Position numbers and translations under genes: made by a program. Shown in pieces: positions 30,267 to 64,000 of a stretch of 64,000 nt of DNA. This DNA comes from Pseudomonas tritici (GTDB lineage Bacteria; Pseudomonadota; Gammaproteobacteria; Pseudomonadales; Pseudomonadaceae), in contig NZ_CP077084.1 of NCBI RefSeq assembly GCF_014268275.3, positions 2,666,001-2,730,000 of the forward strand, read 5' to 3'. Numbering within the stretch: the stretch's first letter is position 1; each line of letters opens with the position of its first letter. The notes below the pieces were generated by a model, which was not told the origin of the DNA, did not search any database, and worked only from the letters and a program-made list of their open reading frames with translations.

Positions 30267-30468
30267 TCAGGGCCTCCTGGCAGGCCCGGGAGGTGGGCCG
30301 TTATGGCTAGCAAGTCTAGTGCAGCAGGCCTTACGTCACTGTGATGTTTTTTTTGCTATCACCGTAACATCAGGTTCATAAACTGGCCTCAGGATGACGG
30401 TTTTCTAGGGCGCGTCGGCCGTGCAGCGATGCAGAGCAGGGGGTGAACAGGGAGTCTGGAGGCGCGTC

Positions 30469-31670: not shown

Positions 31671-31707
31671 TGTCGAGTCCCTGATAAATCCGTGAGTACG
31701 TGCGCGC

Positions 31708-44937: not shown

Positions 44938-45017
44938 CGCGCCCCTCGCCAACCGCCTAACCCTCATACGTGAGCCTGTCTTGCTCCCTGCGTAATAACA
45001 AAGAAGGAAGATTCCCG

Positions 45018-48000: not shown

Positions 48001-51000
48001 TGCAGTTGGCCGCAGATTTCTTCAACAAGGGCTTCTCGGCCTATGACGTCACCGGCAACGAAGGGCTGCTGGTCACGGACGGCACCCAGGTAAATGTCAC
48101 CACGCCGGTCTATCGCTTGGGCGACCAGACCTCCGCTGCGCCCAGTGGCAGCGACCCGGCCACGGCCCTGGAGCGTTGGACGCCAGCGTTGTATCAGGAA
48201 GACGCGACCAAAGGCGTGCTGACCCAGCGCCGTGGCGCCAGCCTGACCTTGACCGCCGGCCACCAGGAGTCCACGGCCGCCGAACTGGCCACCACGGCGT
48301 TGACCGTAGGCCGGGGCGCGGTGATCAACGTTGACCCTGGCCAGGGCATCAACCTGCGCAGCGTTGGCCAGTTGACCCTGAACGGCACCCTCAATGCCTG
48401 GGGCGGGAGTGTCAGCCTGGGTGGTTTGACAGTGACGGTTTCAGAACAGGCTAACGCCGCTGGCCATGGCCGCTCGATCTGGGTGGGCGAGAACGCGCTG
48501 ATCGATGTTGCTGCGCGTGCGGTCACGGCGGTGAGCAGCCGTGGCGATGTCTACGGCCAGGTGCGTAATGGCGGCAAGATCAGCATCGGTGGCGACATCG
48601 ACCTGGCCACCGGCATTGCCAAGGCCAGCGACCTGTTTGTGGTCGTACGCGACGGCGCCCGCCTGGATGCTTCCGGCGCCCAGGCGGGCCTGGATATTCC
48701 GGGCCAGGGCCGGGTGCAGGTGGCCAGCAATGGCGGCAGCATCAGCTTCGCGTCCAACAACGGTCTGTACCTGGATGGTAGCTTCGTCGCCAGGGCCGGT
48801 GGCGTCGGCGCGGCGGGCGGCAGTTTGTCCGTGGCCCTGGAAAGTCCTTACTACGCCAAGAATGCCGTCACTGACCGCGTACTCAACCTTCGCGAACTGG
48901 TACTGAGTCAAACCCACCAGGGCAGCACATTGCCGGACACCGCCGACGCGGCGGCCGCCAGCCTGGAATATGGTCATGGTCGCCTTGGGGTGGACCAGGT
49001 CAGCGCTGGCGGGTTCGACAACCTCGCTTTGTTGAGCGACGGCGTGCTGGGTTTCGACGGTGACGTATCGCTGAAAATGGGCCAAAGCCTGCGCCTGTAC
49101 AGCGGCGCCATGGGGCTTACAGAGCAGGCTGCGGACAATTCACGTATCAACCTGTCGGCGCCGTACCTGCTGCTGGCGGGCATCCTTGAACCGTTGGAAG
49201 CCAAGGACCAGTACCTGCATCCGGTATTGACCAACGGCACGTCTCAACGCGCCAGCCAGGCGCTGTTTGCAGCCAACGCTAACCTGATTGATGTGCGCGG
49301 CAGCGTGCAGTTCGGCAATAACAGCAACCTGCCGCTGAGCGACACCAGCCTGGTAAATGTCGACCGCCGAGGGTTCGATGATGTGCAACTGACCAGCCAG
49401 GGCGACCTGCGCTTTCTGGCCGGGGCGGGGGCGGATGCGATCGCCACGGGTATCAGTACGCAACTGATGACCCGGGGGGACATGACCCTGCGTGCGGTGC
49501 AGTTGTATCCGGGGACCGAGGTTGGGGCGCGGGTACTGGCTGGCTTTCTGAGCGAACGTGATGGCACCAGCTTCAACTACGATCCAGACCGCACCCTGAC
49601 TATCGCCCGCACCGGCAACAGCAATGCCCAGATGCCCTACTCGGCGTTCGGCCGCTTTCAACTGGGAGCCGCCACCATCAAGCAGGGCGGCGTGATACGC
49701 GCGCCCCTGGGGCTGATTGAGGTTGGCGTTATGGGAGGCAACAGGGTCGAGTTGCTGCCCGGCAGCCTGACCTCGGTGAGCGGCAAGGGCCTGGTGCTGC
49801 CATACGGCGGCACGGTTGATGGTCAAGTCTACAAATACAACGGTAAGACCGTGACGTTTATCGGTCTGGGCGGACGAGACAACAACGGCCTGAGTGTCGG
49901 GTTGACGTTAGGGGGGCAGTCGGTTGCGGTGCTGCCTGACGCTACGGTGGAACTGTCCGGCGGCGGCGAACTGCTCGGCGCCGGGTTTATTTCCGGGCGC
50001 GGTGGTTCTACGGATGCGCGCTACAACCCGTTGGTACAATTCGGGGCGAATGGCGGGTTTGTGCTGCCGGGGCTGGGCACCAACCCGATCTATGCGATCG
50101 TGCCGGGTGCGCAACCGGGTTATGCCCCCGTGGCGCCGGAAGGGGGTGCAGTCGATCCGTTGATTGGCCAGCAAATCACGATTGGCGCCGGCGTACCGGG
50201 GCTTGCGGCGGGCACCTATACCTTGATGCCGTCCACCTATGCCTTGATGCCGGGCGCTTTCCGGGTGGAAATCAATGGCCTGGCCGGCCTCGGCAGCGAC
50301 AGCACGACCCAGGCCATGCGCAATGGCTCGTGGTCCACGTCGGGGCGCCTGTCCATCGCCAATACCGAGATTGGCAACAGCATTGCAAGCCAGGTGATTC
50401 TGACCTCTGCCGATACCCTGCGCCGCTATTCGCAGTACAACGAAACTGGCTATGCACAGTTCGCCGTAGCCGACGCCGCCAGGCTGGGTGTGCCACGCGC
50501 ATTGCTGCCGGTGGACGCTAAAACCCTGCAATTGATACTGCGAGCAGGCGCAGGGGAGGACTCCTTTTCGTTCCAGGGTATCGGTCGCTTTGAGGCAGCC
50601 GACGGCGGTTACGCCGGCACCGTTTCGCTGAACAGTTCAGGTGGAGGCGCCGGGCGAGACATCGAAATTATTGCGGCGGGCAAGGGCGCCACCAGTGGGT
50701 TTGCCGGTATTACCGTAGGGGCACAAAACCTCAATGCACTGGGCGCTGCACGCCTGGTGATTGGCGGGACGATGGTGGTCAATTATGGTCAGGGTGGCAA
50801 CTACGTCACCCTCAGTGGCGGTAATACGGGGGTCCTCACCCTGCGCGATGGCGCGACTCTGGCCGCGCCGGAAGTATTCCTGGTGGCCTCGACCGGCTCC
50901 ATCGTGGTTGAACAGGGCGCCTCCATCAATACCATCGGGCGCGGCAAGGCCAGTTATGATGCGCGCGATGGCTTTGTCTACAACTTGGCCAACGTATTGG

Positions 51001-54000
51001 CAGTGTCTAATGGCTTGCTCAATGTGGTCGCCCAGACGCAACCGCAGGCGGGTAAAGGTATCCAGATAGGGGTCTGCAACAGTGCGCCATGCAGTGGGCA
51101 AACTGCTCTGTATTCAGAAGGCAGCATCGTCGCCTTGACTGACAACACCTTGCAGATGAGCGATCAGGTGCGCTACGGCACCCGCCACCTCAACCTGGGG
51201 CTGGCCAGCATCAACGTCGGCAGCCCGCAAGCCCTGGCCGATGCGGCGGCGGCCAATCGCCTGCCGGCGGGCCTGACCCTCACCCAGGCAGTGCTCGACC
51301 GCCTGCTGCGCGGCGATACCCAGTTCGGCGCACCGGCCCTGGAAACCCTGCAACTGTCGGCACGCGACAGCTTCAACTTCTACGGCACCGCGACCCTGGA
51401 CACCTACGATGCGGTGACCGGCAAGTCTCTGTTGAACAACCTGATGCTCTCCACCCCGGCCATCTACGGTTCCGGCGGTGCGAATGATGTGGCGACTATC
51501 CACACCGCCAACCTGATCTGGCAGGGCGCCGAGGCGGCGCCTGGCACGGTGGTGGCGGGTGGCGCGGGCACCGGCGGCGGGCGCCTGGATATCAATGCCG
51601 AGCGCATTGAGTTCGGCTACGGCGAGTTTGCCCAGGCCAGCACCACAGCGACCTTGAACCGCCTGGCCCTGGGCTTTGCCAACGTCAACCTCAAGGCCAG
51701 CGACCGCATCACCGCCAACCATAAGGGCAGCCTCTCGGTGTACCAGAACCAGGGCGCCTATGACCCGGTCAAGGGTTTTGCCTACAGTGGCGGCAACCTG
51801 AATATCCTGACACCGTTGATGACCGGCGCGGCGGGCTCAGTGAACAAAATCACCGCCGGGGGTGCGATTGATATCAGTGCGTCGGCCGGCCCGGTGGGCA
51901 AGGTGGAGGGCCTGGGCGGCGAGTTGTCGCTGCAGGGCGACAGCATTCGCCTGGCCAGCGCGGTGGTACTGCCCAGCGGCAAGGTGACCCTGGGCGCCCG
52001 TGGTGACGTGGTGCTGACCGACAACGCATCGATTGATGTGTCCGGTCGCGCCATCGTGTTCAATGACCTGACCAAATACAGCGCGGGCGGTGAAGTGCTG
52101 CTGGAAAGCCGCGCAGGCAATGTACTGCAGGGGGCGGGCTCGACCATCGACCTGTCGGCCAACTACAACCAGGCGGGCAAGCTGCGCGCCGTGGCGGTGG
52201 GCGGCGCGGCCGGCACCGTCGACCTGGCGGGCAAGATTCTCGCCGGCAGCAGCGGCTACTACGATGCCGGCGGCACCCTGGTGCCGTACCTGGCAGGTGC
52301 GGTGGAGGTCCAGGCGCAGCACTTGGGCGGCAACGGCACCTTGAGCGACCAGTTTGCCGCGCTCAACCAGCGCCTCAACCAGGGCCAGGTGTATGGCACG
52401 CGCAGCTTCCAACTGAAACAGGGCGACCTGGTCATCGGCAATGGTGTCAAAGCCAACACCGTGAATGTTTCGGTGGACAACGGCAGCTTGCGCGTGACCG
52501 GCCTGGTGGACGCCAGCGGCGAGCGCGTCGGCAGTATCAACCTGGCCGGCAAGAACGGCCTGACCCTGGACGGCAGCGCTGTACTCGACGCCCATGGCAC
52601 GCAATTGCGCGTGGACAGCTACGGCAAGATCATTGATTCGCCGAACCGCGCCATCGTGGTGCTCGGTTCCGGCACCGGCCAGCTGACCCTGGCTGGCGGT
52701 GCGCGTATCGACCTGCGTCATGGCACCGATACTGCGACTGGCAATAACGGGCGCAACCGTGGCACGTTGGAACTGAATGCGCCGCGGTTGGGCGCGGATG
52801 ACATTGCCATCGACGCCAGTGGGCACCTGACCATCGACGGCGCGCGATCGATCGCCCTAAACGGCATGGCTACCTATGACGATGCCGATTTCGGCACGGG
52901 CACGACTGCCAGCGGCAGGCCGTATCAGGAAATCACCCAGGATTACCTAGATAAGAAGCACGACCTGAGCACGACGTTCATCAATGCGGCCTTGAAAAAT
53001 ACCAACCTGGTGCAGAACAAGCTGGCCGGCCTGAACAACGCGACCTACGGTGATACCTTTCACCTGCGCCCTGGCGTGGAAATCATCAGCAAAACCCCGG
53101 ATGGCGACTTGGTGGTGCAGGGAGACCTGGACCTGTCCGGCTATCGCTACGCGAGCCTGAAATCGCCGACCCAAGCGGTGACCGAGGCCGGCAGCCTGAC
53201 CCTGCGTGCCGGTGGTGATCTGAATATCTACGGCAGCATCAACGATGGTTTTGCAGAGCCGGCGGCGACCCCGGATGATACCGGCTGGGTGCTGCGCGCT
53301 GGCATTGACTACACCGGCGGCACGATAACGGTGCCCGGTGACGGCGTGACCCTGGCGGACGGCACCACGTTCCCTGGCGGCACGATTCTCAATTTCGACC
53401 TGCCGATCAAGGCCCGCAGCCTGACTGCCGGTACGCGATTGCCGGTGGCGGTGACCCTCAATTCGACCTTGGCATTGCCGGCCGGTACGGTCCTGGCGGG
53501 TGCGGTGCGTAATGCCTCGGGTACCGTGTTGTACCCGGCAGGCACGATATTGACTGCGCGCGTGAGCTTACCGAAAGACAGCATCCTGGATGCCGGTACG
53601 GTGTTGGTGAGCCTCACCAGTGTGAAGGCCATGACCTGGCCGGCGGGCGTGCCGTTACCTGGGAAACTGGGCAGCACCGCGATAGTGACCCTCAATGGTC
53701 CCAAGCTGCTGCTGCGCGGGGCCTTGTTGCCGGTGGGCACCGACGTCAAGCTGCAGGGTGGCGTGCCGTGGGTGAACCTGCGTACGGGGGGCGAGGGCAA
53801 GCTCTGGGCTGTGGCGCCGATGCTGGCCGAGGGCTCGCAGTCCTGGTCGATGCGTCTGGTGGCCGGGGCCGACACACAGGCGGCCGACAGTCGCTTGCTG
53901 CAGCCGCATCCAGAGGCGGGTAATCTCCGTTTGGCGGACAGCCACTCCTCCGTCAAGATTATCTCCGCCAATGATATTAGGGCGGGCAGTCCGCGTTTCA

Positions 54001-57000
54001 GCGTGATCCGCACCGGTGCGGCAGACCTCGAGCTGCTGGCCGGGGGCGACTTGAGCATGGATTCGCTCTATGGCGTCTATACCGCCGGCAGCTCCGCCGC
54101 GAGCGCGTCTGGCGAATGGTTCCCGGAAGGCGGCGGTAATTTGCTGGTTAAGGCGGGTGGCAACCTGACTGGGAACATCACCAGTGAAGCCCCGGACATT
54201 GATGATCGGCCGGTCGCGGGTGACGTGGGTAATGACTCCGCCAACGTAGGCGCTTGGTTGTGGCGTCAAGGCAATGGCCTGTCTGGTAGCCAGGCCCAGG
54301 CGACCAGTTGGTGGATCAACTTTGGCGCCTATACCCCTAACTATTTAATAAAAAATGCACCTGACCAGATGGTTGGCTTTACCGGCTTTGGCACGCTGGG
54401 CGGGGGTAACCTGAATGTTGACGTCGGCGGGGATGCCGGGATCCTGAGGCCACTGACATTGAACGGGGCCTTACCTGCGAGCGTTAACGCCCGTAGCCAA
54501 GGCCTGGTGTTGGCAGTGGGCAGCACCGGTCGGGTTGGGGCCGATGGCAGCCTGCAACTCACGGGCGGCGGCGATATGAATGTGCGGGTCGGCGGGGCGG
54601 TTAACCCTGGCAGTCAAATCACGTCGGGTCACCTTAATGGTGCGGTGGTAGATCTTCGCGGGCATGTTCAATTGACGGGCGGCGCCCTGGGTAGCTTGAC
54701 CTTGCGTTATGGCAACCGGTCAACGGATCAGAGCCCTGGCGAAGTCCGCGCCTACGATTCGATGCGCTCGACTTCCGCGACGGCGGCCGGGGGCTGGAGC
54801 CTGTTACCTGGGGACGCAACCTTCAGTGTGGCCACCCGTGGGGACCTGGTATTGCAAGATGTGGCCGATCCGGGCCGCGCGCCGCAAATGAATGCCTCGG
54901 CCTATGTGAAAGGCGCGGATCTTGGTTTTGGTCAGAGCTGGTTCAGTTTGTGGACCGAACGCACTGCGATCGATCTGTTCTCCGCCGGCGGCAACCTCAC
55001 GCCACTGACAGACACCACAGAGTCGGATATGGCGGCGGTATATCCCGCGACATTACGTGCGGTCGCGGCCAACGGCAGTCTGTATTACGGGCGTGCTTCG
55101 GCACTTAACAACAGCCCGCCACCGCCGCTCAAAGCGCTGGTGCTGGCGCCGTCGGCCAACGGTCAGTTGCAATTGCTGGCGGCGGACTCGATCTATGGCG
55201 GTGACTTGACCATCAGCCGCTCCAGCGCAGCACCGGATACCCTGGCGACGATCCTGCGCCCAGCGTTCCAAGGGTATGTCAAAGACCCCACGAGCGGAAA
55301 TTATCAACTGGTTGGCAGTAATACTTCCACGGATTCCGTTCGGGCCGATCTGGGCCGCGTCTCTCCCCTGTTTGCCTTCGGTCCGAATACCGCCAGCACG
55401 TCATGGGGCGATGCCTTGGACCCCGCGCGTTTCTATGCTGTAACCGGCGATCTGCTGGGCGTCAACAGCGGGCGTTCGATCACTATTACCACCGCTACCG
55501 ACCCGCGCTTTGGGCAGACCTATCATGAAGGCGCAGGCGCGGTGTGGATGTTGGCTGGGCGAGATGTCGTCAGCAGCGGCACAACCTTGAGTGGTGCCAG
55601 CGGCGGTGACGGTGGGAGTGGGGAATACACCATCGCCGGCAATCTGTTCGTCCACAACAGCCCCACCGATATCTCTATTGTCAGTGCCGGCCGCGACATC
55701 CTCTACAGCAGCTTCAACGTCGCCGGCCCCGGCAACCTCGAAGTGACCGCCGGCCGCAATATCCTGATGGATGACAAGGTCGGCATCACCAGCCTGGGCG
55801 CCGTGGCCGCAGGCGACAACCGCCCCGGCGCAAGCATCACGATGCAAGCCGGTGTAGGCCCCAACGGCCCGGATTACCTGCGCTTCGTCGAGGCCTACCT
55901 GAACCCCGTCAACCTGGCGCAACCGGGCGAATCGATCCAGGGCGGCAAGGTCGCCAAGACCTACGAAAATGAACTGGTCGGTTGGCTCGCCGCGCGCTTC
56001 GGTTTTATCGGCAGCCCCGACCAGGCCCGCACCTATTACGCGGCACTGCCGGCCGAACAACAACGGGTCTTCGCCCGCGACGTGTACTTCGCTGAACTCA
56101 AGGCCGCCGGCCGCGAGTACAACCAGGTCGGCAGTGTGCGCCAGGGCAGTTACCTGCGTGGCCGCTCAGCCATCGCCGCACTGTTCCCGGACAAGGACGT
56201 GTCCGGCAACCCGATCACCTACAAAGGCGACATCACGATGTTCGGCGGCGCTGGCGTGCACACCAACTTCGGTGGCTCGATTCAGATGTTCACCCCAGGC
56301 GGCAGCCAGACCTTCGGCATCGAAGGCGCGGCGCCACCGTCGACGGCGGGTGTGATTACCCAAGGTGCCGGTGATATCCAGCTGTACTCCATGGGCAGCA
56401 TCCTGCTTGGCCAGAGCCGCATCATGACCACCTTTGGCGGTTCGATCATGGGGTGGACCAGCGAGGGCGACATCAACGCCGGTCGCGGCTCCAAGACCAC
56501 CGTGGTGTACACGCCGCCCAAGCGTGTCTATGACAACTGGGGCAACGTCGGCCTGTCGCCGTCGGTGCCAAGCACTGGCGCGGGGATCGCGACCTTGAAC
56601 CCGATTCCGGAAGTGCCGGCGGGGGACATCGACCTGATCGCACCGTTGGGCACCATCGACGCAGGGGAGGCGGGGATTCGTGTATCCGGCAACGTCAACA
56701 TCGCCGCGTTGCACGTGGTGAACGCGGCGAATATCCAGAGCCAGGGCAAGTCGTCCGGGGTGCCGGTGTCAGCCACGGTCAACACGGGGGCCATGAGCTC
56801 GGCCAGCGCGGCGGGGGCAGCGGCATCCCAGGCGGCCGAAGACGCAGCACGCAGCCAGCAGGCGGCGGCCAAGCAGGGCCGGCCTTCGATCATGACGGTG
56901 GAAGTGTTGAGCCTGGGCAGCGAGCCGTTGCCGCGTGAACCGGAACCGCAGCAGAAAAATTCCGCCTACAACCCCAACAGCCCGGTGCAAGTGCTGGGCG

Positions 57001-57068
57001 CGGGGCCGCTGAGCGAACAGGCGCGGGCGCGGTTGACGGATGAGGAGCGCAAGCAGATCAGCTTATAA
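45018..57068 (+). CDS. pdtA: PdtA-like giant TpsA exoprotein (filamentous haemagglutinin family)
   Basis: A 4016-residue secreted protein. An extended signal peptide (MVRCKSPVNLKAQDTVLRLKPLAHAIALLMVAGNAQA) precedes an Ala/Gln-rich linker and the TPS domain (about 120 to 320): NWETFNVGRNTTVDFQQ, EIQGQINGAGTVMIVNRNGVVFSG (the NPNG motif reads NRNG). A very long beta-helical body of Gly/Asn/Thr-rich strands follows. The C-terminal part (about 3590 to 3900, including GPDYLRFVEAYLNPVNLAQPGESI and GDITMFGGAGVHTNFGGSIQMFTPGG) matches the DUF3739 end of such haemagglutinins, then an Ala-rich and Glu/Pro-rich tail. The start at 45018 has an AAGGAAG ribosome site. It is secreted by PdtB and probably acts as an adhesin. 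Confidence 0.96.
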   Translation: MVRCKSPVNLKAQDTVLRLKPLAHAIALLMVAGNAQAATAFSSSWFADKGATQAATAARLSAGQVPGIPTLNQQARVNQQLARSISTLNTSVAAIAAQQAAQAAGRQAAFGQVSNIPDGLGKGGLQVDNSLTQGWLNANGPKQSQSGGKTTVTIEQTADKAILNWETFNVGRNTTVDFQQQSSWAVLNRVNDPNARPSEIQGQINGAGTVMIVNRNGVVFSGTSQVNVRNLVAAAGNITDEQFTQRGIYVDSTGSQPTFTDAAGKVVVQRGALIQTHNPATSTDAGGYALLLGSEVENAGTIITAKGQTTLAAGDSFYIRKGVGTTGNDRSTTRGNEVATSLNAGSSAGKVTNSGLIMASTGDITLTGHQVQQNGVALASTSVDTRGTIHLLNSATDATGSVTLGEGSTTAILLDSSGSTALNSQKGNGLVNLDGTPANLITGQFNNLSAVADRTDQSRIEIVSGGTVDFQKGSITLATGGQVAVSAAGRSLVRDGAMIDVSGAVGVKVSMESNNIKINVQGNEQRDAPVNRDGGQLINNDVWVDLRELVFVPAGTNGYATDRWYTAGGLLEVGGYLGTQGHSVGEWMAQGGTVTFTGKDVVTQKGAQINLSGGTVDVQAGYIQQTWLKGPDGRLYEVSNAPGDILYSGFYKGYEDTSKRWGQTDYYYNPMIAKQRRYESGYTVGRDAGKLVIGTTSAVLEGQVISDVFQGDRQTQAPNINLDGYQQSQKAMAQRAQLIIGGYTPVYNKTTGTLRYALTGTTDQVLIDSNTQKIADGLDLTTALPADRQGKMVLDSDQLNGYQLGAIKVGATQQITVNGALKVADGGDITLFGPGVNINANLTAHGGSINAGNILYQVDPLKGTVLDAIVPGNGGVNVASGVKLDTTGRWNNLLLEPTNNSGVAYVNGGKVSLRSTGNVSLAAGSVVDASSGGILGLDGKLTGGKGGDVTLASLSSLALDGEIRGYGVSGGGTLALQARKVQIGDSATVPDAGTVQLAADFFNKGFSAYDVTGNEGLLVTDGTQVNVTTPVYRLGDQTSAAPSGSDPATALERWTPALYQEDATKGVLTQRRGASLTLTAGHQESTAAELATTALTVGRGAVINVDPGQGINLRSVGQLTLNGTLNAWGGSVSLGGLTVTVSEQANAAGHGRSIWVGENALIDVAARAVTAVSSRGDVYGQVRNGGKISIGGDIDLATGIAKASDLFVVVRDGARLDASGAQAGLDIPGQGRVQVASNGGSISFASNNGLYLDGSFVARAGGVGAAGGSLSVALESPYYAKNAVTDRVLNLRELVLSQTHQGSTLPDTADAAAASLEYGHGRLGVDQVSAGGFDNLALLSDGVLGFDGDVSLKMGQSLRLYSGAMGLTEQAADNSRINLSAPYLLLAGILEPLEAKDQYLHPVLTNGTSQRASQALFAANANLIDVRGSVQFGNNSNLPLSDTSLVNVDRRGFDDVQLTSQGDLRFLAGAGADAIATGISTQLMTRGDMTLRAVQLYPGTEVGARVLAGFLSERDGTSFNYDPDRTLTIARTGNSNAQMPYSAFGRFQLGAATIKQGGVIRAPLGLIEVGVMGGNRVELLPGSLTSVSGKGLVLPYGGTVDGQVYKYNGKTVTFIGLGGRDNNGLSVGLTLGGQSVAVLPDATVELSGGGELLGAGFISGRGGSTDARYNPLVQFGANGGFVLPGLGTNPIYAIVPGAQPGYAPVAPEGGAVDPLIGQQITIGAGVPGLAAGTYTLMPSTYALMPGAFRVEINGLAGLGSDSTTQAMRNGSWSTSGRLSIANTEIGNSIASQVILTSADTLRRYSQYNETGYAQFAVADAARLGVPRALLPVDAKTLQLILRAGAGEDSFSFQGIGRFEAADGGYAGTVSLNSSGGGAGRDIEIIAAGKGATSGFAGITVGAQNLNALGAARLVIGGTMVVNYGQGGNYVTLSGGNTGVLTLRDGATLAAPEVFLVASTGSIVVEQGASINTIGRGKASYDARDGFVYNLANVLAVSNGLLNVVAQTQPQAGKGIQIGVCNSAPCSGQTALYSEGSIVALTDNTLQMSDQVRYGTRHLNLGLASINVGSPQALADAAAANRLPAGLTLTQAVLDRLLRGDTQFGAPALETLQLSARDSFNFYGTATLDTYDAVTGKSLLNNLMLSTPAIYGSGGANDVATIHTANLIWQGAEAAPGTVVAGGAGTGGGRLDINAERIEFGYGEFAQASTTATLNRLALGFANVNLKASDRITANHKGSLSVYQNQGAYDPVKGFAYSGGNLNILTPLMTGAAGSVNKITAGGAIDISASAGPVGKVEGLGGELSLQGDSIRLASAVVLPSGKVTLGARGDVVLTDNASIDVSGRAIVFNDLTKYSAGGEVLLESRAGNVLQGAGSTIDLSANYNQAGKLRAVAVGGAAGTVDLAGKILAGSSGYYDAGGTLVPYLAGAVEVQAQHLGGNGTLSDQFAALNQRLNQGQVYGTRSFQLKQGDLVIGNGVKANTVNVSVDNGSLRVTGLVDASGERVGSINLAGKNGLTLDGSAVLDAHGTQLRVDSYGKIIDSPNRAIVVLGSGTGQLTLAGGARIDLRHGTDTATGNNGRNRGTLELNAPRLGADDIAIDASGHLTIDGARSIALNGMATYDDADFGTGTTASGRPYQEITQDYLDKKHDLSTTFINAALKNTNLVQNKLAGLNNATYGDTFHLRPGVEIISKTPDGDLVVQGDLDLSGYRYASLKSPTQAVTEAGSLTLRAGGDLNIYGSINDGFAEPAATPDDTGWVLRAGIDYTGGTITVPGDGVTLADGTTFPGGTILNFDLPIKARSLTAGTRLPVAVTLNSTLALPAGTVLAGAVRNASGTVLYPAGTILTARVSLPKDSILDAGTVLVSLTSVKAMTWPAGVPLPGKLGSTAIVTLNGPKLLLRGALLPVGTDVKLQGGVPWVNLRTGGEGKLWAVAPMLAEGSQSWSMRLVAGADTQAADSRLLQPHPEAGNLRLADSHSSVKIISANDIRAGSPRFSVIRTGAADLELLAGGDLSMDSLYGVYTAGSSAASASGEWFPEGGGNLLVKAGGNLTGNITSEAPDIDDRPVAGDVGNDSANVGAWLWRQGNGLSGSQAQATSWWINFGAYTPNYLIKNAPDQMVGFTGFGTLGGGNLNVDVGGDAGILRPLTLNGALPASVNARSQGLVLAVGSTGRVGADGSLQLTGGGDMNVRVGGAVNPGSQITSGHLNGAVVDLRGHVQLTGGALGSLTLRYGNRSTDQSPGEVRAYDSMRSTSATAAGGWSLLPGDATFSVATRGDLVLQDVADPGRAPQMNASAYVKGADLGFGQSWFSLWTERTAIDLFSAGGNLTPLTDTTESDMAAVYPATLRAVAANGSLYYGRASALNNSPPPPLKALVLAPSANGQLQLLAADSIYGGDLTISRSSAAPDTLATILRPAFQGYVKDPTSGNYQLVGSNTSTDSVRADLGRVSPLFAFGPNTASTSWGDALDPARFYAVTGDLLGVNSGRSITITTATDPRFGQTYHEGAGAVWMLAGRDVVSSGTTLSGASGGDGGSGEYTIAGNLFVHNSPTDISIVSAGRDILYSSFNVAGPGNLEVTAGRNILMDDKVGITSLGAVAAGDNRPGASITMQAGVGPNGPDYLRFVEAYLNPVNLAQPGESIQGGKVAKTYENELVGWLAARFGFIGSPDQARTYYAALPAEQQRVFARDVYFAELKAAGREYNQVGSVRQGSYLRGRSAIAALFPDKDVSGNPITYKGDITMFGGAGVHTNFGGSIQMFTPGGSQTFGIEGAAPPSTAGVITQGAGDIQLYSMGSILLGQSRIMTTFGGSIMGWTSEGDINAGRGSKTTVVYTPPKRVYDNWGNVGLSPSVPSTGAGIATLNPIPEVPAGDIDLIAPLGTIDAGEAGIRVSGNVNIAALHVVNAANIQSQGKSSGVPVSATVNTGAMSSASAAGAAASQAAEDAARSQQAAAKQGRPSIMTVEVLSLGSEPLPREPEPQQKNSAYNPNSPVQVLGAGPLSEQARARLTDEERKQISL

Positions 57069-57407: not shown

Positions 57408-57502
57408 TAGCTCCCGGCCACCCCCGTCTCTCCTATGTAACGCGCTGGAGGCCGCCACAAGCTGCCTCCCCAGCCGTCAGCAAGACGCCAGGAGTGGGGC
57501 AA

Positions 57503-58105
57503 GTGGGAACTATGGAACGTTACTCGAAAGTAGGCATGCAGGAGCTCGACCAGCGCCTGTCGAAGATCGTTGAAGCCGCGCGCAAGAAGCCGGTTTCGGT
57601 GTACCGCTACGGTGCGCCGTGGGTGTGGATCGTCTCTCAGGACGACTGGCAGGGCGCGTTGAAGGAAGTGTCCAGCTACATCCCGGCGGGCCATTCCCTG
57701 GTGTTGCTGCGCCCGCAGATCGACGAAGTGCTCGACCAGCACCGTGAGTGGCTGTTGGCCGAATCCGCGATGTCGATCGCCCCGCACACTGTGCTGCAAG
57801 TCCTCTTGCTGCAACTGCTGTATTCGGTGCCCAGCGAGCAGCAACTGCATGAACAGCTGAACTACAACCTGCTGTTCCGCTGGTTCGTCGGCCTGGACCT
57901 GAACCAAAAGGTCTGGAGCCTTCATGTCCTCACCCGCGACATCGCCACGCTGCTGAATAACCCGCGTGCGGTGCAACTCATCCAGAAAATCATCGGTGAC
58001 GTGTTTTGTGGCGCCTTGCTGCACATGCCGGAGTTCTCGCTGAACTTCGCCCTGTTGCACACCTGGCTGGCACGCCACGGCAACACCTCGATCACCAGCA
58101 ATTGA
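57503..58105 (+). CDS. phdA: PhdA-like protein: Phd/YefM-like N-terminus joined to an IS5-transposase-type N-terminal domain
   Basis: A protein of about 200 residues. The first 50 (RYSKVGMQELDQRLSKIVEAARKKPVSVYRYGAPWVWIVSQDDW) resemble a Phd/YefM prevent-host-death antitoxin. The middle (TVLQVLLLQLLYSVPSEQQLHEQLNYNLLFRWFVGLDLNQKVWSLHVLTR) resembles the DUF772 N-terminal domain of IS5-type transposases, but no DDE catalytic domain follows. The syntenic P. aeruginosa gene PA0691 is, as I recall, named phdA and linked to control of biofilm lysis and DNA release. GTG at 57503 has an AGGAG site eight bases before it; ATG 57512 and GTG 57494 are alternatives. pdtB follows after 44 bases. Confidence 0.8.
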   Translation: MGTMERYSKVGMQELDQRLSKIVEAARKKPVSVYRYGAPWVWIVSQDDWQGALKEVSSYIPAGHSLVLLRPQIDEVLDQHREWLLAESAMSIAPHTVLQVLLLQLLYSVPSEQQLHEQLNYNLLFRWFVGLDLNQKVWSLHVLTRDIATLLNNPRAVQLIQKIIGDVFCGALLHMPEFSLNFALLHTWLARHGNTSITSN

Positions 58106-58149: not shown

Positions 58150-59748
58150 ATGTCAGGGGGCGGTGTGGAGCATCTGTTCAAATTAACGCTGGCGCTGTGT
58201 TGCGTGACGCTGGGGAGCGTGACGCAAATCGCGTTGGCCGAGGAAGAGCAAGCGGCGCGCACGGTCGACGTCAACGAGTACTTCGTGCGCGGCAACACGG
58301 TGCTCGATGCGGCGACGATCGAGGAGGCTGTGTACCCGTTTCTCGGTCCGCAAAAGACCTTGGGCGATATCGAAGGCGCCCGCGATGCGCTGCAGAAGAT
58401 CTACCAGTCGCGGGGCTACCAGTCGGTGTTTGTCGAGCTGCCGGAGCAGAAGGTCGACGACGGTATCGTCTACCTGCAAGTCAGCGAAACCAAGGTAGGA
58501 CGCGTGCGTGTGGTCGGCGCCAAGCACTATTCGCCGGTGGAAATCCGCGAGCAGGTGCCGGCGCTGGAAGAGGGCGCGGTGCCGGACTTTGCCACGGTGC
58601 AAACCCAGTTGGCCGGCCTCAACCGCAGTGCCGGGCGTCAGGTCACGCCGCTGGTACGCGAAGGCCAGCGCCCCGGCACCATGGATGTGGATTTGCAGGT
58701 GGAAGACCAGAACCCCTGGCACGCCAGCCTCGGCCTGAACAACGACTACAGCGCCGACACCGAGAAGCTGCGCTCGGTGGCAACCCTGGGTTACGACAAC
58801 CTCTGGCAACTGGGCCACAGCATTTCGCTGACGTACTTCACCGCCCCCCAGGACACTGAGAATGCCAAGGTCTGGTCCGGTTCCTATACCGCCCCGTTGA
58901 ACGAGCGCTGGACCTTGCAGTTCTCCGGTTACCAGTCCGACAGCAACATCGCCACCATCGGCGGCAGCAACGTGTTGGGCAAGGGGCATTCCTATGGGGT
59001 GTCGGCGATCTACAACCTGCCCGCTGCCGGTAACTGGGCCAACTCGTTCTCGTTCGGGGTCGACTTCAAGGACTTCGACGAGGAAATGAAATTTGGCTCC
59101 AGCAGCGACCAAGTGCCGCTCAAGTACGCGCCATTCACGTTGGGCTACAACGGCTATCGCTACACCGAGCAATCCCAGCTGGGGCTTGGCTTGAACCTGG
59201 TCGTCGGCACCCGTGCGTTCTTCGGTTATGGCAGCGACGCCGAGGAGTTCGACTACAAGCGCTACAAGGCCAGCGCCAGTTTTGCCGTGCTCAAGGGCGA
59301 CCTGAATTACACCTACACCTTCGCCAACGATTGGCAGTCAGCCACCAAAAGTGGCTTCCAGCTGGCTTCGGGGCCGCTGGTCTCCAACGAGCAGTATTCC
59401 GCCGGCGGCGCCACTTCGGTGCGCGGCTACCTGGCGGCGGAGCGCACCGGGGATGAGGGTTACTTGCTCTCCCAGGAACTGCGCACGCCGTCCATGGCCA
59501 AGTTTCTCGGCAGTTATGTGCAGGAATGGCGCTTTTATGCGTTCGCCGAAGGCGCGCGCATGCGCCTGCACGACCCGCTGCCCGAGCAAGAAGACGAATA
59601 CAGCCTGGCCAGTGTCGGCCTGGGCACCCGCGCCAGTTTGAGCAAATGGTTGTCCGGCAGCCTGGATTGGGGCTACCCGCTGCTCGATGGACCGAACACC
59701 CAGAAACAGGACTCGCGACTGCACTTCAGTGTGCAGGCGACTTTCTGA
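58150..59748 (+). CDS. pdtB: PdtB-like TpsB outer-membrane transporter
   Basis: A 532-residue FhaC/ShlB-family protein that exports PdtA. After a signal peptide (LFKLTLALCCVTLGSVTQIALA) come two POTRA domains (DVNEYFVRGNTVLDAATIEEAVYPFLGPQKTLGDIEGARDALQKIYQSRGYQSVFVELPEQKVDDGIVYLQVSETKVGRVRVVGAKHYSPVEIREQ), then a 16-strand barrel with the lid motif region SAGGATSVRGYLAAERTGDEGY (conserved VRGY of loop L6) and terminal strand SRLHFSVQATF ending in Phe. The start at ATG 58150 is preferred; GTG 58165 is possible. Confidence 0.95.
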   Translation: MSGGGVEHLFKLTLALCCVTLGSVTQIALAEEEQAARTVDVNEYFVRGNTVLDAATIEEAVYPFLGPQKTLGDIEGARDALQKIYQSRGYQSVFVELPEQKVDDGIVYLQVSETKVGRVRVVGAKHYSPVEIREQVPALEEGAVPDFATVQTQLAGLNRSAGRQVTPLVREGQRPGTMDVDLQVEDQNPWHASLGLNNDYSADTEKLRSVATLGYDNLWQLGHSISLTYFTAPQDTENAKVWSGSYTAPLNERWTLQFSGYQSDSNIATIGGSNVLGKGHSYGVSAIYNLPAAGNWANSFSFGVDFKDFDEEMKFGSSSDQVPLKYAPFTLGYNGYRYTEQSQLGLGLNLVVGTRAFFGYGSDAEEFDYKRYKASASFAVLKGDLNYTYTFANDWQSATKSGFQLASGPLVSNEQYSAGGATSVRGYLAAERTGDEGYLLSQELRTPSMAKFLGSYVQEWRFYAFAEGARMRLHDPLPEQEDEYSLASVGLGTRASLSKWLSGSLDWGYPLLDGPNTQKQDSRLHFSVQATF

Positions 59749-59772: not shown

Positions 59773-61572
59773 ATGCAACGCCTATTCCTGAGCCTGTTGA
59801 TCTGCCTGGGCTTCGCGCTCCCGGCCACCGCCCATGCCTGGTGGCAGGACGATTGGCACTACCGCAAACAGATCTCGGTAGACACCACCGCCCAAGGCGC
59901 CGCGATCAACCAGGCCCTGGGCCGCACCGCGCTGCTGGTGCGCCTGCACACGGGCAATTTCACCTTTGACGGGGTGAAGGAAGACGGTGCCGACCTGCGT
60001 TTTGTCAGCGCCGATGACAAGACCGTGTTCAACCATCAGATCGAAAGCTTCGACCCGTTGATGGGCATGGCGCTGATCTGGGTCGATGTGCCCAAGGTCG
60101 AAGGCGGCCAGCGCCAGGACCTGTGGATGTACTACGGCAATCAGAAAGCCCCGGCCACCGCCAACGGCCAACTGACGTTTGATCCGAACTACACCGCGCT
60201 TTACCACTTTGATGGGGCCAATGCGACACCGCCCCGGGACACCACGGCCTACGCCAACACTGCACTGAACGCCACTGGCGCGAGCATTGACGGCGTGATC
60301 GGCCGCGCCTTGCAGTTCGGCGGCCAGCCCTTGATGTTGCCGGCCAGCCCATCGTTGCAGCACGCAGCCGGTGGCGCATTCACCTTCAGTGCCTGGCTGC
60401 GCCTGGACCAGGCCAGTGGCGAGCAAGTGGTGCTGGCCCGTCGCGACGGCTCTCACAACCTGCTGCTGGGCTTGAACCAAGGTATGCCGTTTGTGGAAAT
60501 CGACGGCCAGCGCGCCGTGTCGACCCAACCGCTGAACCCCGGCCAATGGCAGCACCTGGCGTTCACCGCCGAGGGTGAAAAGGTCTCGTTGTATGTGAAT
60601 GGCCGCGAAACCGCGACCCTCGCCGTCGCCTTGCCAGCGTTCAATTCCCAGTTGGCCATTGGTGCCGACCTGCCGGAAGCGGGCAGCACGCACCAGCCAT
60701 TCGCCGGGGCCATCGATGAGCTGCGCCTGTCCAAGGTGGCGCGCCCGGCCGCGCTGTTGCTGGCCGACGCCAGCGCCCAGGGCGCCGAGTCGAAGCTGGT
60801 GGCCTATGGCGTGGATGAAGAACAGTCCGGCATGGGCTTCGGCAGCCTGGGCTTCTTGCTTAATGCCGTACCGGTCGACGCCTGGGTGATCATCCTGGTG
60901 CTGGTGGCGATGATGTTCCAGTCGTGGGTCATCATGCTGCGCAAGAACCGTCAGGTCAGCCGCCTCAGCAGTGCCAACGAGGTCTTCCGCGAGCATTTCG
61001 CGCAGATCGGCACCCGCCTGGAAATGTACGCCGACGACACGCAATTGGCTGAGCGCCTGACCCATTCTTCGCTGTGGCGCCTGTACCTGGTGGCGGTCAA
61101 GGAAATCCGCACCCGTCGCGCCCAGGGCGCCGACACCTCGTCGGTCTCGGCTGCCACCATCGAAGCCATCCGCTGTTCCATGGACGGCGTGCGCACCCGC
61201 GAAAACCAGGCCCTCAGCTCCAAGCTCTCGACCCTGTCCAACGCCATCGCCGGCGGCCCGTACATCGGCCTGCTCGGGACGGTGCTGGGGATCATGGTGG
61301 TGTTCCTCGGTACCGCCATGGCCGGTGACGTGAACATCAATGCCATCGCGCCGGGTATGGCGGCGGCCTTGCTGGCCACGGCCATGGGCCTGTTTGTCGC
61401 GATCCCGGCGCTGTTTGGCTACAACCGCCTGATCACGCGCAACAAGGAAGTGAGTGCGGACATGCGCGTGTTTGTCGATGAGTTCATCACCCGCCTGGCG
61501 GAGATGCACGGCGAGAGCCAGCACAGTGAAGCCGCGCACCGCGCACCGCATCACGCACCGGTTCCGGCCTGA
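59773..61572 (+). CDS. DUF2341-LamG-ExbB fusion: periplasmic lectin-like domain on a TolQ/ExbB proton channel
   Basis: A 599-residue inner-membrane protein, far longer than the ~240 residues of normal ExbB. A signal peptide (MQRLFLSLLICLGFALPATAHA) leads to a DUF2341 domain (WWQDDWHYRKQISVDTTAQGAAINQALGRTALLVRLHTGNF ... GADLRFVSADDKTVFNHQIESFDP, about 23 to 130) and a LamG/concanavalin-like domain (ALYHFDGAN ... FTFSAWLRLDQASGEQVVLARRDGSHNLLLGLNQG ... WQHLAFTAEGEKVSLYVNGRE ... FAGAIDELRLSKVARP, about 140 to 330). The C-terminal third is MotA/TolQ/ExbB: AWVIILVLVAMMFQSWVIMLRK and GGPYIGLLGTVLGIMVVFLGTAMAG plus AAALLATAMGLFVAIPALFGYN. It corresponds to the exbB2 position of the P. aeruginosa locus. 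Confidence 0.93.
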   Translation: MQRLFLSLLICLGFALPATAHAWWQDDWHYRKQISVDTTAQGAAINQALGRTALLVRLHTGNFTFDGVKEDGADLRFVSADDKTVFNHQIESFDPLMGMALIWVDVPKVEGGQRQDLWMYYGNQKAPATANGQLTFDPNYTALYHFDGANATPPRDTTAYANTALNATGASIDGVIGRALQFGGQPLMLPASPSLQHAAGGAFTFSAWLRLDQASGEQVVLARRDGSHNLLLGLNQGMPFVEIDGQRAVSTQPLNPGQWQHLAFTAEGEKVSLYVNGRETATLAVALPAFNSQLAIGADLPEAGSTHQPFAGAIDELRLSKVARPAALLLADASAQGAESKLVAYGVDEEQSGMGFGSLGFLLNAVPVDAWVIILVLVAMMFQSWVIMLRKNRQVSRLSSANEVFREHFAQIGTRLEMYADDTQLAERLTHSSLWRLYLVAVKEIRTRRAQGADTSSVSAATIEAIRCSMDGVRTRENQALSSKLSTLSNAIAGGPYIGLLGTVLGIMVVFLGTAMAGDVNINAIAPGMAAALLATAMGLFVAIPALFGYNRLITRNKEVSADMRVFVDEFITRLAEMHGESQHSEAAHRAPHHAPVPA

Positions 61573-61583
61573 GGAGAGTTGCC

Positions 61584-62009
61584 ATGGCTTCTGTAAATGC
61601 CTCCCACGACGATGACGATGATGCCGCCGTCGACAGCATCAACATCACGCCCCTGGTGGACGTGCTGATGGTGGTGCTGGTGATGTTTATCCTCACCGCC
61701 ACTGCCCAGGTCTCGGGTATCCAGATTCACCTGCCCAAGGCCAGCGCTTCGGTGTCGTTGTCGGAGGCCAAGACCAAGGCGATCTCCGTGAACGACGGCG
61801 GCCAGGTGTTCCTTGACGCGTACCCGGTGACCCTTGGCGAACTCGAAGAGCGCCTGCGTATCGAGAAAGCGCTGAACCCGGATTTCCCGGTGATCGTGCG
61901 CGGCGATGCGATGGTGCAGTACCAGAAGGTGATCGAAGTGCTCGACTTGCTGCGCCGGCTGGAGCTGTCCCAGGTCGGGCTGGTCACCGGCAAGCCGAGC
62001 CAGGGCTGA
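61584..62009 (+). CDS. exbD: ExbD/TolR-family proton-channel subunit
   Basis: A 141-residue bitopic protein: SINITPLVDVLMVVLVMFILTATAQVSGIQIHLPKAS contains the conserved Asp of the membrane segment (PLVDVLMV), needed for proton conduction. Periplasmic part: AISVNDGGQVFLDAYPVTLGELEERLRIEKALNPDFPVIVRGDAMVQYQKVIEVLDLLRR. Starts 11 bases after the ExbB fusion with a GAGGAG site. It couples with the ExbB-like channel and the adjacent TonB-like protein. Confidence 0.95.
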   Translation: MASVNASHDDDDDAAVDSINITPLVDVLMVVLVMFILTATAQVSGIQIHLPKASASVSLSEAKTKAISVNDGGQVFLDAYPVTLGELEERLRIEKALNPDFPVIVRGDAMVQYQKVIEVLDLLRRLELSQVGLVTGKPSQG

Positions 62010-62012
62010 GCC

Positions 62013-62720
62013 ATGACCGCACAGATCCCAATCGCGCCACTGCCCGTGAAAAAGAAGCCGCCATTGCGCCCGTTGAAGTGGGGCGCGGGCCTGTTGCTGG
62101 GCGCCGTGGCGGCCTGGTTTTTGTGGCAGTGGGCCAATGACATGAGTGGCGTGCGCCGCGAAGCGCCCAAGGTGCCGACGATTATCCCGTTGCCGCCACC
62201 ACCGCCACCGCCTCCAGAGAAACCCAAGGAGCCCGAGCCCCAGGTCGAAGAAAAAGTCCCGGAGCCGGTGCCAAGCCCCGAACCCGAAGAGGTCAAGCCG
62301 GCCGAGGAAGCGCCGCCTTCGCCCAACGAAGACCTGGCCAACCCGATGCAGATCGATGGCGACGCTCAGTCCGGCAATGACGGTTTCAACATCGGCGCTG
62401 GTAAGGGCGGCGGCATGGCCGGCAGCGGTGGCGGCGGCGGGTTGGGTACCGGCACGTACAAGCAGTACCTGGCCGGCACCTATCAACGGCTGATGCGCGA
62501 AGACCCGGAATTACGCAAGAAGGCTTTCTCGATACAGATAGACCTGTGGTTGGGCACCGATGGCCAGGTCACTAAAGCGCTGGTGGCCAAGTCCAGCGGG
62601 GATGCCGAGACCGATGCCCAGATGCTCGCGCTGATACGTGCACCGCGTTCCACACAGAAGCCGCCGGCCTCGCTGACGCTGCCCATGCGCCTGTCCCTGA
62701 AGGGCCGGCGCCCGGATTAA
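62013..62720 (+). CDS. TonB-like energy transducer
   Basis: A 235-residue protein with one membrane segment (GAGLLLGAVAAWFLWQWAN, about 25 to 45), a Pro/Glu-rich periplasmic spacer (eight consecutive Pro after IIPL, then PEKPKEPEP-type repeats), a Gly-rich region and a TonB/TolA-type C-terminal domain (YKQYLAGTYQRLMREDPELRKKAFSIQIDLWLGTDGQVTKALVAKSSGDAETDAQMLALIR). The start lies three bases after the exbD stop. It probably takes energy from the adjacent ExbB-ExbD to an outer-membrane partner; the VreA-like component and PdtB are candidates. Confidence 0.9.
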   Translation: MTAQIPIAPLPVKKKPPLRPLKWGAGLLLGAVAAWFLWQWANDMSGVRREAPKVPTIIPLPPPPPPPPEKPKEPEPQVEEKVPEPVPSPEPEEVKPAEEAPPSPNEDLANPMQIDGDAQSGNDGFNIGAGKGGGMAGSGGGGGLGTGTYKQYLAGTYQRLMREDPELRKKAFSIQIDLWLGTDGQVTKALVAKSSGDAETDAQMLALIRAPRSTQKPPASLTLPMRLSLKGRRPD

Positions 62721-62763
62721 TTGAATGCTTTTTTCAACGGTTTTTTACAGGAGTTGCGTACAC

Positions 62764-64000
62764 ATGATTTCCCCCGTGAATCGACTGACCCTGGCGGTCG
62801 GCATGGTCATCGCGACCCTGGTCGGCCAGGCGACTGCAGCCCCGGTCGCGCCCTCGGAAAACGTCACTATCAACCTGATCCGCCTGTTGGTGCAGCAAGG
62901 CGTGCTCAAGCAGGAAACCGCCAATGGGCTGATCGCCCAGGCCGAAAAGGAAGCCCAGCAGGCACGCCAGGCCAATGCCGCGTCGGTGGTTGCCGCAGGC
63001 CCGGTCGCCGCGCCCGGCGACGTGCGTGTGCAATATGTGCCGCAGGCGGTCAAGGATCAGATCCGCGATCAGGTCAAGGCCGAGGTCATGGCCACCGCCA
63101 AGCAGGAAAACTGGGCGCAGCCCAATACGTTCCCGGACTGGATCTCGCGCATCAGCTTTGATGGCGATATCCGTTTGCGCGACGAGTCGCGCTATTTTTC
63201 GGGTAACAACAGCAACAACATCACTGACTTCGCGAAGCTCAATGACACCGGCCCCTACGACGTCAACAAAAACTCCAATACCAAGTTCCCACCCTTGCTC
63301 AACACCCGCGAGGACCGTGAGAACCTGTTCCGCCTGCGCGCACGCCTGGGCATGAAGGCGGTGATCTCTCCGGATTGGACAGCCGGCATACGCATCGCCA
63401 CCGGCTCTGACAATAACCCGGTGTCCACCACCCAAACCCTGGGCGGCGGTTTCGGCAAAAAAGACGTCTGGCTTGACCAGGGTTACCTCACCTGGGCAAC
63501 CACCGACTACATGAAGTTGACCGCCGGCCGCATCGGCAACCCTTTCTACTCCACCGACATGATGTATTCCAACGACCTCAACTTCGACGGTGTGGCCGCA
63601 GTCTTCAACCACGCCCTCAATAGTGAATGGGGCCTGTTCGGCACGCTCGGCGCCTTCCCGGTCGAATACACCTCCGACACTGCCAGCGCCAACGGTATCG
63701 ACAAGGAAGACAGCGAGACCAAATGGCTGTTCGGTGGGCAGATTGGCGCTGACTGGAAGATCAATCGCAGCAACCGTCTCAAGCTGGCGGCTGCCTACTA
63801 CCAGTTCCAGGACATCGAAGGCGAGCGCTCCAGCCCTTGCGCGCCATGGGCGGGCGCGGCGGGTTGCGACACCGACGGCACGCGCGTGGCCTTCATGCAA
63901 AAAGGCAACACCGTGTTCAACTTGCGTAACAACACCACCAACCCGGCTGATCCTGCCAGAACACCCGACCCGCAGTTCGTAGGCCTGGCGTCCAAGTTCG
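62764..64000 (+). CDS. Putative porin (cut by window end)
   Basis: The first 412 residues of an outer-membrane protein that continues past the window. A signal peptide (NRLTLAVGMVIATLVGQATA) precedes a coiled, Gln/Ala-rich segment (LIRLLVQQGVLKQETANGLIAQAEKEAQQARQANAA), then a barrel: ISFDGDIRLRDESRYFSGNN, LFRLRARLGMKAVISPDWTAGIRIATGSDNNPVSTTQTLGGGFGKKDVWLDQGYLTWATTDYMKLTAGRIGNPFYSTDMMYSNDLNFDGVAAVFNH. This is the putative-porin family found next to exbD/tonB in the P. aeruginosa locus. AGGAG ribosome site. Probably transcribed with the TonB-like gene. Confidence 0.9.
   Translation, partial: MISPVNRLTLAVGMVIATLVGQATAAPVAPSENVTINLIRLLVQQGVLKQETANGLIAQAEKEAQQARQANAASVVAAGPVAAPGDVRVQYVPQAVKDQIRDQVKAEVMATAKQENWAQPNTFPDWISRISFDGDIRLRDESRYFSGNNSNNITDFAKLNDTGPYDVNKNSNTKFPPLLNTREDRENLFRLRARLGMKAVISPDWTAGIRIATGSDNNPVSTTQTLGGGFGKKDVWLDQGYLTWATTDYMKLTAGRIGNPFYSTDMMYSNDLNFDGVAAVFNHALNSEWGLFGTLGAFPVEYTSDTASANGIDKEDSETKWLFGGQIGADWKINRSNRLKLAAAYYQFQDIEGERSSPCAPWAGAAGCDTDGTRVAFMQKGNTVFNLRNNTTNPADPARTPDPQFVGLASKF

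Follow-up and report, generated by a model that had tools for sequence, protein, structure and literature searches.

A headed ExbB proton-channel gene set is tied to one subclass of two-partner secretion and suggests proton-driven help in the handling of a giant exoprotein

A stretch of 64,000 nucleotides from Pseudomonas tritici (contig NZ_CP077084.1, positions 2,666,001 to 2,730,000), hereafter the window, was analysed. It is part of a 6.24-Mb contig, and the best named protein relatives come from Pseudomonas. Close to its end, exbB2 (59773..61572; all features of the window given here are on the + strand) encodes a protein in which a signal peptide, a DUF2341 domain and a laminin-G domain precede a TolQ/ExbB-type channel. 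This protein, called here headed ExbB, is tied to one subclass of two-partner secretion (TPS), that in which the exoprotein TpsA ends in a DUF3739 domain, and not to TPS generally. The case for a functional link between the two is strong. We infer, with confidence only slightly better than even, that a dedicated Tol/Ton-type motor energises or gates the export or display of the giant DUF3739-bearing TpsA. The data suggest that TPS export, thought to be energy-free, may have a proton-driven helper of its own. An earlier note, made from the sequence alone, had described here an ExbB channel with a DUF2341-LamG head of about 330 residues, followed by exbD and a TonB-like gene and lying beside a TPS pair; domain scans bore out this description. 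The note's proposal, that proton motive force could energise or gate the export, release or surface exposure of PdtA, is partly supported.

The co-occurrence of the genes was examined in 398 genomes taken evenly from the phylum and in 179 Pseudomonas genomes, some genomes being in both draws. In the phylum draw, 81 of the 398 genomes matched the full-length ExbB query at an E value of 1e-25 or better, with at most three candidates scored per genome. Proteins with a table score of at least 255 bits were taken as headed, the remaining matches scoring 104 bits or less. Headed ExbB was thus found in 14 genomes. The head was seen in 13 of them, and the last (G284) offers a contig-edge fragment in which only residues 308-578 are visible. 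DUF3739 was found in exactly the same 14 genomes. TpsB, on the other hand, occurs in 177 of the 398 genomes, including 13 of the 14 with headed ExbB (it was not found in G284); 164 of these 177 genomes have no headed ExbB. Among the Pseudomonas genomes, headed ExbB and DUF3739 were each found in 60 of 179, again as identical sets. The survey of DUF2341-ExbB and TpsB proposed in the earlier note therefore gave a one-to-one match in both draws, though with DUF3739 rather than with TPS at large.

The two genes need not be neighbours. Of the 60 Pseudomonas genomes, 23 have them on one contig at a distance of 20 kb or less and 19 on one contig at a distance of 36 kb to 4.4 Mb; in the remaining 18 they are on separate contigs, a split that may in some cases be an assembly break. 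Because co-occurrence is kept despite separation in the 19 genomes, physical linkage cannot explain the match. In two of the 60 genomes DUF3739 sits in a short open frame (387 and 631 amino acids), so that these TpsA genes may be broken. Since the genomes are related, naive odds would overstate the co-occurrence; the pattern nevertheless recurs, both inside a single genus and, in the phylum draw, over seven families.

To describe the neighbourhoods, 94 loci were picked by ExbB alone: the best 80 of 339 stretches encoding a relative (592 stretches scanned), 13 from another search, and the window's own locus. A 3.8-kb contig-edge fragment (L046, from G284) was excluded. The loci are not independent lineages, as two of them (L039 and L061) are apparently one record and some genomes contribute two, and absences are uncertain because several loci stop at a contig edge. 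TpsB lies inside the locus in 57 of the 94 and just past its edge in 22; nine have the DUF3739-TpsA alone and six have neither, so that one or the other was seen in 88 loci. The notion of TpsB-less loci was discarded: TpsA ran to the locus edge, and 20 extended stretches hold TpsB just upstream of TpsA. In these 20 of the 22 edge cases the stretch contains the first 60 bases of the locus with TpsB beside it, while for L042 and L043 the placement is taken from coordinates. Within 500 bp of ExbB, TpsB was found in 55 loci and DUF3739-TpsA in 26 more, 81 of 94 in total; other genes intervene between ExbB and the TPS gene in L114 and L120. The earlier note had held that a lack of genomic linkage with TpsB elsewhere would speak against its proposal, and such linkage is widespread. 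The six loci with neither TPS gene (L040, L082, L088, L109, L121 and L125) all have DUF3739 elsewhere in their genome.

Two gene orders are found repeatedly: tpsB-exbB-exbD-tonB-porin, where tpsA is either separate or downstream, and tpsB-tpsA-exbB-exbD-tonB-porin. Of the 94 loci, 93 contain ExbD, 90 have a TonB-like gene no more than 2.5 kb downstream and 75 encode a coiled-coil protein. The gene set occurs in records titled Alpha-, Beta- and Gammaproteobacteria and Verrucomicrobia; eight Verrucomicrobia-titled records (L069, L070, L085, L093, L096, L101, L102 and L110) have both headed ExbB and TpsB in the locus. In G268, the motor genes (L040) stand apart, and a different contig carries TpsB, Porin_5 and DUF3739 no more than 5 kb from one another, a layout that ties Porin_5 to the TPS pair.

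The TPS partners of headed ExbB were then compared with other TPS proteins. TpsB (pdtB, 58153..59748; the precise start codon is uncertain, the open reading frame opening at 58006) scores 87.6 bits for the barrel PF03865 (cut-off 22.7) and 62.9 bits for POTRA_2, PF08479 (cut-off 24), as expected of type Vb secretion. In single FastTree runs, the TpsBs linked to headed ExbB (51 non-redundant of 74 full-length) separated without error from 40 others, chosen by hand across bit scores and thus non-random, with a support of 0.95. The distance from the signal core to POTRA1 has a median of 22 residues in the 51 linked TpsBs (range 6-51, 50 of 51 below 48) and of 55 residues in the 40 others, 37 of which have at least 48. 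The three comparison proteins below 48 residues are those of L167, L183 and L160; that of L183 looks mis-aligned, and a few values of 107-236 look like wrong signal cores. In FhaC, the plug helix H1 spans residues 1-32 and is followed by a 25-residue linker, H1 being 'generally found in TpsB transporters' (PMC4490367). Judged by length rather than by structure, the linked TpsBs are too short for H1 and its linker, which are usual though not obligatory ahead of POTRA1 in type Vb transporters. The clade formed by the linked TpsBs therefore probably lacks the plug.

The sister of this clade is the TpsB of L167/L187 (L187:9061-14394), which has 16 residues ahead of POTRA1 and a TpsA of 1242 amino acids. 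No match to DUF3739 or to headed ExbB was found in the 20 kb around it or in its genome, G294. The idea that the motor brought about the plug loss was therefore rejected, this sister protein being short as well with no motor. It offers a natural reference for asking at what point a motor came to be required.

TpsA (pdtA, 44970..57068) is 4032 amino acids long, with an N-terminal extension, a TPS domain at residues 155-416 and DUF3739 at residues 3823-3933 (56436..56768). Its TPS domain, PF05860, scores 95.5 bits against a cut-off of 33.5, again as in type Vb. The C termini of 38 linked TpsAs consist of a weakly conserved linker followed by a conserved stretch, whose main columns hold V in 32, L in 28, G in 29 and G in 34 of the 38. 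Seven of the 38 end precisely at this stretch, one of these (L114) without the motif. In P. tritici the stretch corresponds to residues 3972-3983 (56883..56918). In a model of the last part of TpsA (mean pLDDT 74.7, pTM 0.49), the beta part stops near residue 121 of 225 and a helix spans residues 135-163; no structure is assigned to the conserved stretch, at 165-176, which is modelled with low confidence. With no partner in the model, this conserved strand is a candidate docking strand. At the other end of the protein, an extension of 94-121 residues between signal peptide and TPS domain was found in 17 of 39 measured linked TpsAs (including that of the window, L035, L057 and L062) and one of 23-75 residues in the other 22, so that a long extension was rejected as a common feature. 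A literature search on DUF3739 returned no paper; the domain becomes a marker of a TPS subclass.

On the inner-membrane side, the head of ExbB covers approximately residues 23-350 (59839..60822), with the DUF2341 part at 59983-60231 and the Laminin_G_3 part at 60364-60750; it is placed in the periplasm because a signal-peptide-like N terminus precedes the first channel helix. DUF2341 has a single match in the whole P. tritici genome. The channel domain (residues 457-564, 61141..61464) belongs to the MotA/TolQ/ExbB superfamily (PF01618, 92 bits against a cut-off of 22.9), and its fold agrees. Headed ExbB is nearer to TolQ than to ExbB, with NCBIfam scores of 151.3 bits for TIGR02796 (TolQ) and 77.5 bits for TIGR02797 (ExbB of TonB systems) and PDB matches at 1.5e-32 and 2.7e-20, respectively. 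Likewise, the ExbD of the locus (exbD2, 61584..62009) scores higher as TolR than as ExbD. All these scores are under the curated NCBIfam cut-offs of tolQ (221 bits), exbB (206.2 bits), tolR and exbD. The residues equivalent to Thr148 and Thr181 of E. coli ExbB (Thr503 and Thr536 in P. tritici) are kept in 66 of 66 headed ExbBs, and the proton-path Asp of ExbD, including that of the window, in 105 of 105 aligned rows. This conservation makes a working proton path plausible. In ten loci (L042, L082, L105, L108, L111, L113-L115, L117 and L118), a tandem pair of exbD genes follows headed exbB.

The third protein (tonB4, 62013..62720) has a hydrophobic stretch, a long proline-rich stretch and a TonB/TolA-like C-terminal domain. 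It scores below the curated cut-offs, with 14.9 bits against 24.6 for TonB_C and 24.7 against 27.1 for TIGR01352. In the PDB, a profile built from its relatives picks up TonB and TolA, which supports remote kinship with both. Domains of the TonB family bind partner proteins by pairing with short strands in them. The combination present here, of a conserved C-terminal strand in TpsA, a rod of TonB type with its proton channel and a probably plug-less transporter, would be expected of a motor acting on the tail of a giant exoprotein.

Taken together, headed ExbB, ExbD and the TonB-like protein may constitute the inner-membrane motor of a TPS subclass comprising a giant DUF3739 TpsA, a TpsB without the length for a plug, and Porin_5. 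ExbB would form a TolQ-like pentamer with five DUF2341-LamG heads in the periplasm around the TonB-like rod. The C-terminal domain of the rod would contact outer-membrane partners, most likely the conserved strand of the TpsA end waiting in the periplasm, or else the POTRA domains of TpsB. Proton flow through ExbB/ExbD would then pull or release this contact, leading to late export of the chain of ~3,300-5,100 residues or to gating between its retention and its release. VreA, in species that have it, may sense this contact through its C-terminal domain, a relative of the TonB-like one, and inform VreR/VreI of the state of export. The full picture is one of a branch of TPS driven by the proton motive force, in which a lectin-headed motor drives, holds or releases TpsA by its periplasmic C-terminal strand, or the plug-less TpsB, through the TonB-like rod, VreA reading the contact with its own TonB-like domain; we hold it more tentatively, with a confidence somewhat short of even. 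As the subclass was never seen without its own proton-channel genes in the genomes searched, the energy question becomes testable by simple gene removals.

Several points weigh against an energising role. The position equivalent to Glu176 of E. coli ExbB (residue 531, an Ala, at 61363-61365 in P. tritici) is Ala in 56, Gly in 8 and Ser in 2 of the 66 headed ExbBs, whereas it is Glu in 16 of 16 headless relatives. Glu176 of ExbB/TolQ is reported to be essential in E. coli, and an ExbB lacking it is argued to be probably non-working as such (PMC8599685). Because this residue is lost in all 66, the channel of headed ExbB may be altered. Type V translocation is described as needing neither an energy source nor a gradient, and TpsA proteins were translocated into liposomes with neither (PMC5422565); another account calls it unclear what drives two-partner export through the outer membrane (PMC8151025). 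The sister TpsB, short yet motor-less, indicates that shortness alone does not require a motor. Finally, a transposon mutant in tonB4 retained wild-type virulence in a zebrafish test with VreI overexpression, although transposon mutants in tpsA, tpsB and PA0696 did so too (PMC2729926). These published mutants do not decide between the readings.

A further such point is Porin_5 (62725..64000, continuing beyond the window end; L002:3725-5464), which is as faithful to the gene set as TpsA is. Among the 398 phylum genomes, its full-length form (>390 bits) was found in the 14 with headed ExbB and in no others, six further genomes scoring below 120 bits, and it is present in 86 of the 94 loci; its interpretation as a housekeeping porin was rejected on this ground. 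The main rival explanation builds on it: surface TpsA would catch a nutrient polymer, Porin_5 would admit it, ExbBD and the TonB-like protein would power entry, and the LamG heads would hold glycan. Uptake of this kind accounts for the co-occurrence equally well. We regard it as possible, if on the unlikely side. The laminin-G part of the head in the ExbB model is closest in fold (VIA-align) to an arabinanase domain solved with arabinan bound, and this fold is the ground on which glycan binding by the head may be proposed. In P. aeruginosa, the operon is part of the phosphate-starvation regulon under VreI/PhoB control (PMC4971064, PMC7035377), and HxuCBA of H. influenzae provides the precedent of a TPS exoprotein serving a TonB-dependent receptor (PMC5422565). 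Against uptake, the Porin_5 protein matches no TonB-dependent-receptor family. It comes after TonB in the gene order, and in most loci ExbB directly adjoins tpsB or tpsA. Moreover, in the 37 Pseudomonas genomes where tpsA is distant or on another contig, ExbB and TpsA still never occur singly.

The remaining readings are less likely than uptake via Porin_5. In the first, a Tol-like complex would hold the outer membrane to the cell wall at the site of passage of a very large exoprotein, without feeding energy directly into TpsA. The better scores of ExbB as TolQ and of ExbD as TolR favour such a tether. We nevertheless judge it improbable, for no pal, tolB or cpoB was found among the downstream genes scanned in P. 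tritici, and most TpsB-bearing genomes of the phylum draw manage without the complex.

An alternative raised by the earlier note was a role in powering VreA-linked signalling. In this reading the complex would power cell-surface signalling by VreA, VreR and VreI and have no part in secretion. The genes vreA (STN and TonB_2 domains), vreI (sigma factor) and vreR (FecR) lie at 30421..32634. The C-terminal domain of VreA (30421-31128) is related to that of the TonB-like protein (BLASTP 2e-6; hhalign probability 98.5, E 1.5e-15). This kinship hints at a common partner for sensor and motor, so that VreA might read the contact made by the TonB-like protein. The genes of the VreI regulon are also co-regulated (PMC7035377); in P. 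aeruginosa, one promoter transcribes phdA, pdtB, exbB2D2, tonB4 and PA0696-PA0701, and another pdtA alone (PMC4971064). Sigma and anti-sigma genes were found together in just 19 of the 94 loci (17 of the 68 loci of at least 19 kb), as compared with 88 for TpsB or DUF3739-TpsA. This figure is a lower bound, since vreAIR of Pseudomonas lies 27-29 kb upstream, outside the flanks. As a general role, powering VreA was therefore rejected, and this alternative of the earlier note is weakened to that extent, the undercount for Pseudomonas being borne in mind; we rate signalling as the sole task of the complex a little lower than the tether. Hitch-hiking of neighbours in a mobile or inherited block, with no joint function, would suit the patchy distribution in Pseudomonas but is very improbable in view of the exact co-occurrence despite separations of 36 kb to 4.4 Mb and of the spread of the gene set over Alpha-, Beta-, Gammaproteobacteria- and Verrucomicrobia-titled records.

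As for the other genes of the locus, phdA (PA0691-like, 57494..58105) lies between tpsA and tpsB. Its product gave matches to the transposase domain DUF772 and to IS5/IS1182 transposases in their N-terminal part; no Phd family match was obtained in the same scans. Because of these matches and of its presence in 14 of the 94 loci, phdA may be a domesticated transposase piece within the operon. Downstream of the TonB-like gene in P. tritici, Porin_5 is followed by genes for a coiled coil, YbjN, PpiC and LysR. A search of a plasmid collection gave a single match, of 80.5% over 8% of the query.

With two-partner secretion of type Vb (FhaB/FhaC, CdiA/CdiB, PdtA/PdtB), the P. tritici-type set shares a TpsA with a TPS domain and a TpsB with POTRA_2 and a ShlB barrel, all above curated cut-offs. 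It differs by its own proton-channel genes, Porin_5, DUF3739, the conserved stretch near the TpsA end and a TpsB too short for H1. Compared with TolQ-TolR-TolA and ExbB-ExbD-TonB, the headed set is under curated cut-offs, has lost the Glu176 equivalent and carries a head of ~330 residues; none of tolB, pal or cpoB lies beside the motor among the P. tritici genes scanned. The HxuCBA haem-haemopexin system likewise has its TPS pair in the operon of an outer-membrane channel, and likewise connects to a Ton-type energiser. HxuC is, however, a TonB-dependent transporter (PMC5422565), in place of which the present set has Porin_5 and its own ExbB, ExbD and TonB-like genes. Among the operon proteins scanned, no TonB-dependent receptor was found, Porin_5 being the only outer-membrane channel besides TpsB.

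The 'GIT' A subunits are headed MotA/ExbB homologues with DUF2341 or DUF3450, and share with the present protein the placement of DUF2341 on a subunit of ExbB type, where the domain is described as an addition whose function is unknown (PMC12505986). The available text of that account names no partner for the DUF2341 subunit, whereas here it is tied to DUF3739 TPS. By its gene order, the P. tritici locus is the PUMA3/VreI regulon known from P. aeruginosa (PA0690-PA0701; PMC2729926, PMC7035377). A 2009 paper reported for a few genomes that PUMA3 clusters are associated with TPS, ExbBD and PA0696 (PMC2729926), and exbB2-exbD2-tonB4 has been called a 'still uncharacterized putative TonB system' (PMC7035377). 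In the passages of these two accounts that were consulted, neither a head nor a DUF3739 rule is mentioned, nor a lost plug, nor any energising of TPS. No described TPS-ExbBD motor was found in the literature search, where, by title and start of abstract among the best matches and with subscription literature mostly outside, only PUMA3, stator and HxuCBA work bears on it. The earlier note had spoken of an undescribed mechanism, which holds for the mechanism and not for the genes, already in print: the operon, its VreI/PhoB control and the association of PUMA3 with TPS, ExbBD and PA0696 are known (PMC2729926, PMC7035377, PMC4971064). To this the present analysis adds the exact co-occurrence rule, the head, the DUF3739 subclass, the shortness of TpsB at its N terminus and the conservation of the end of TpsA. 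If the proposed motor is real, it would give a role to the DUF2341 head of ExbB-type proteins and to the orphan exbB2-exbD2-tonB4 of Pseudomonas.

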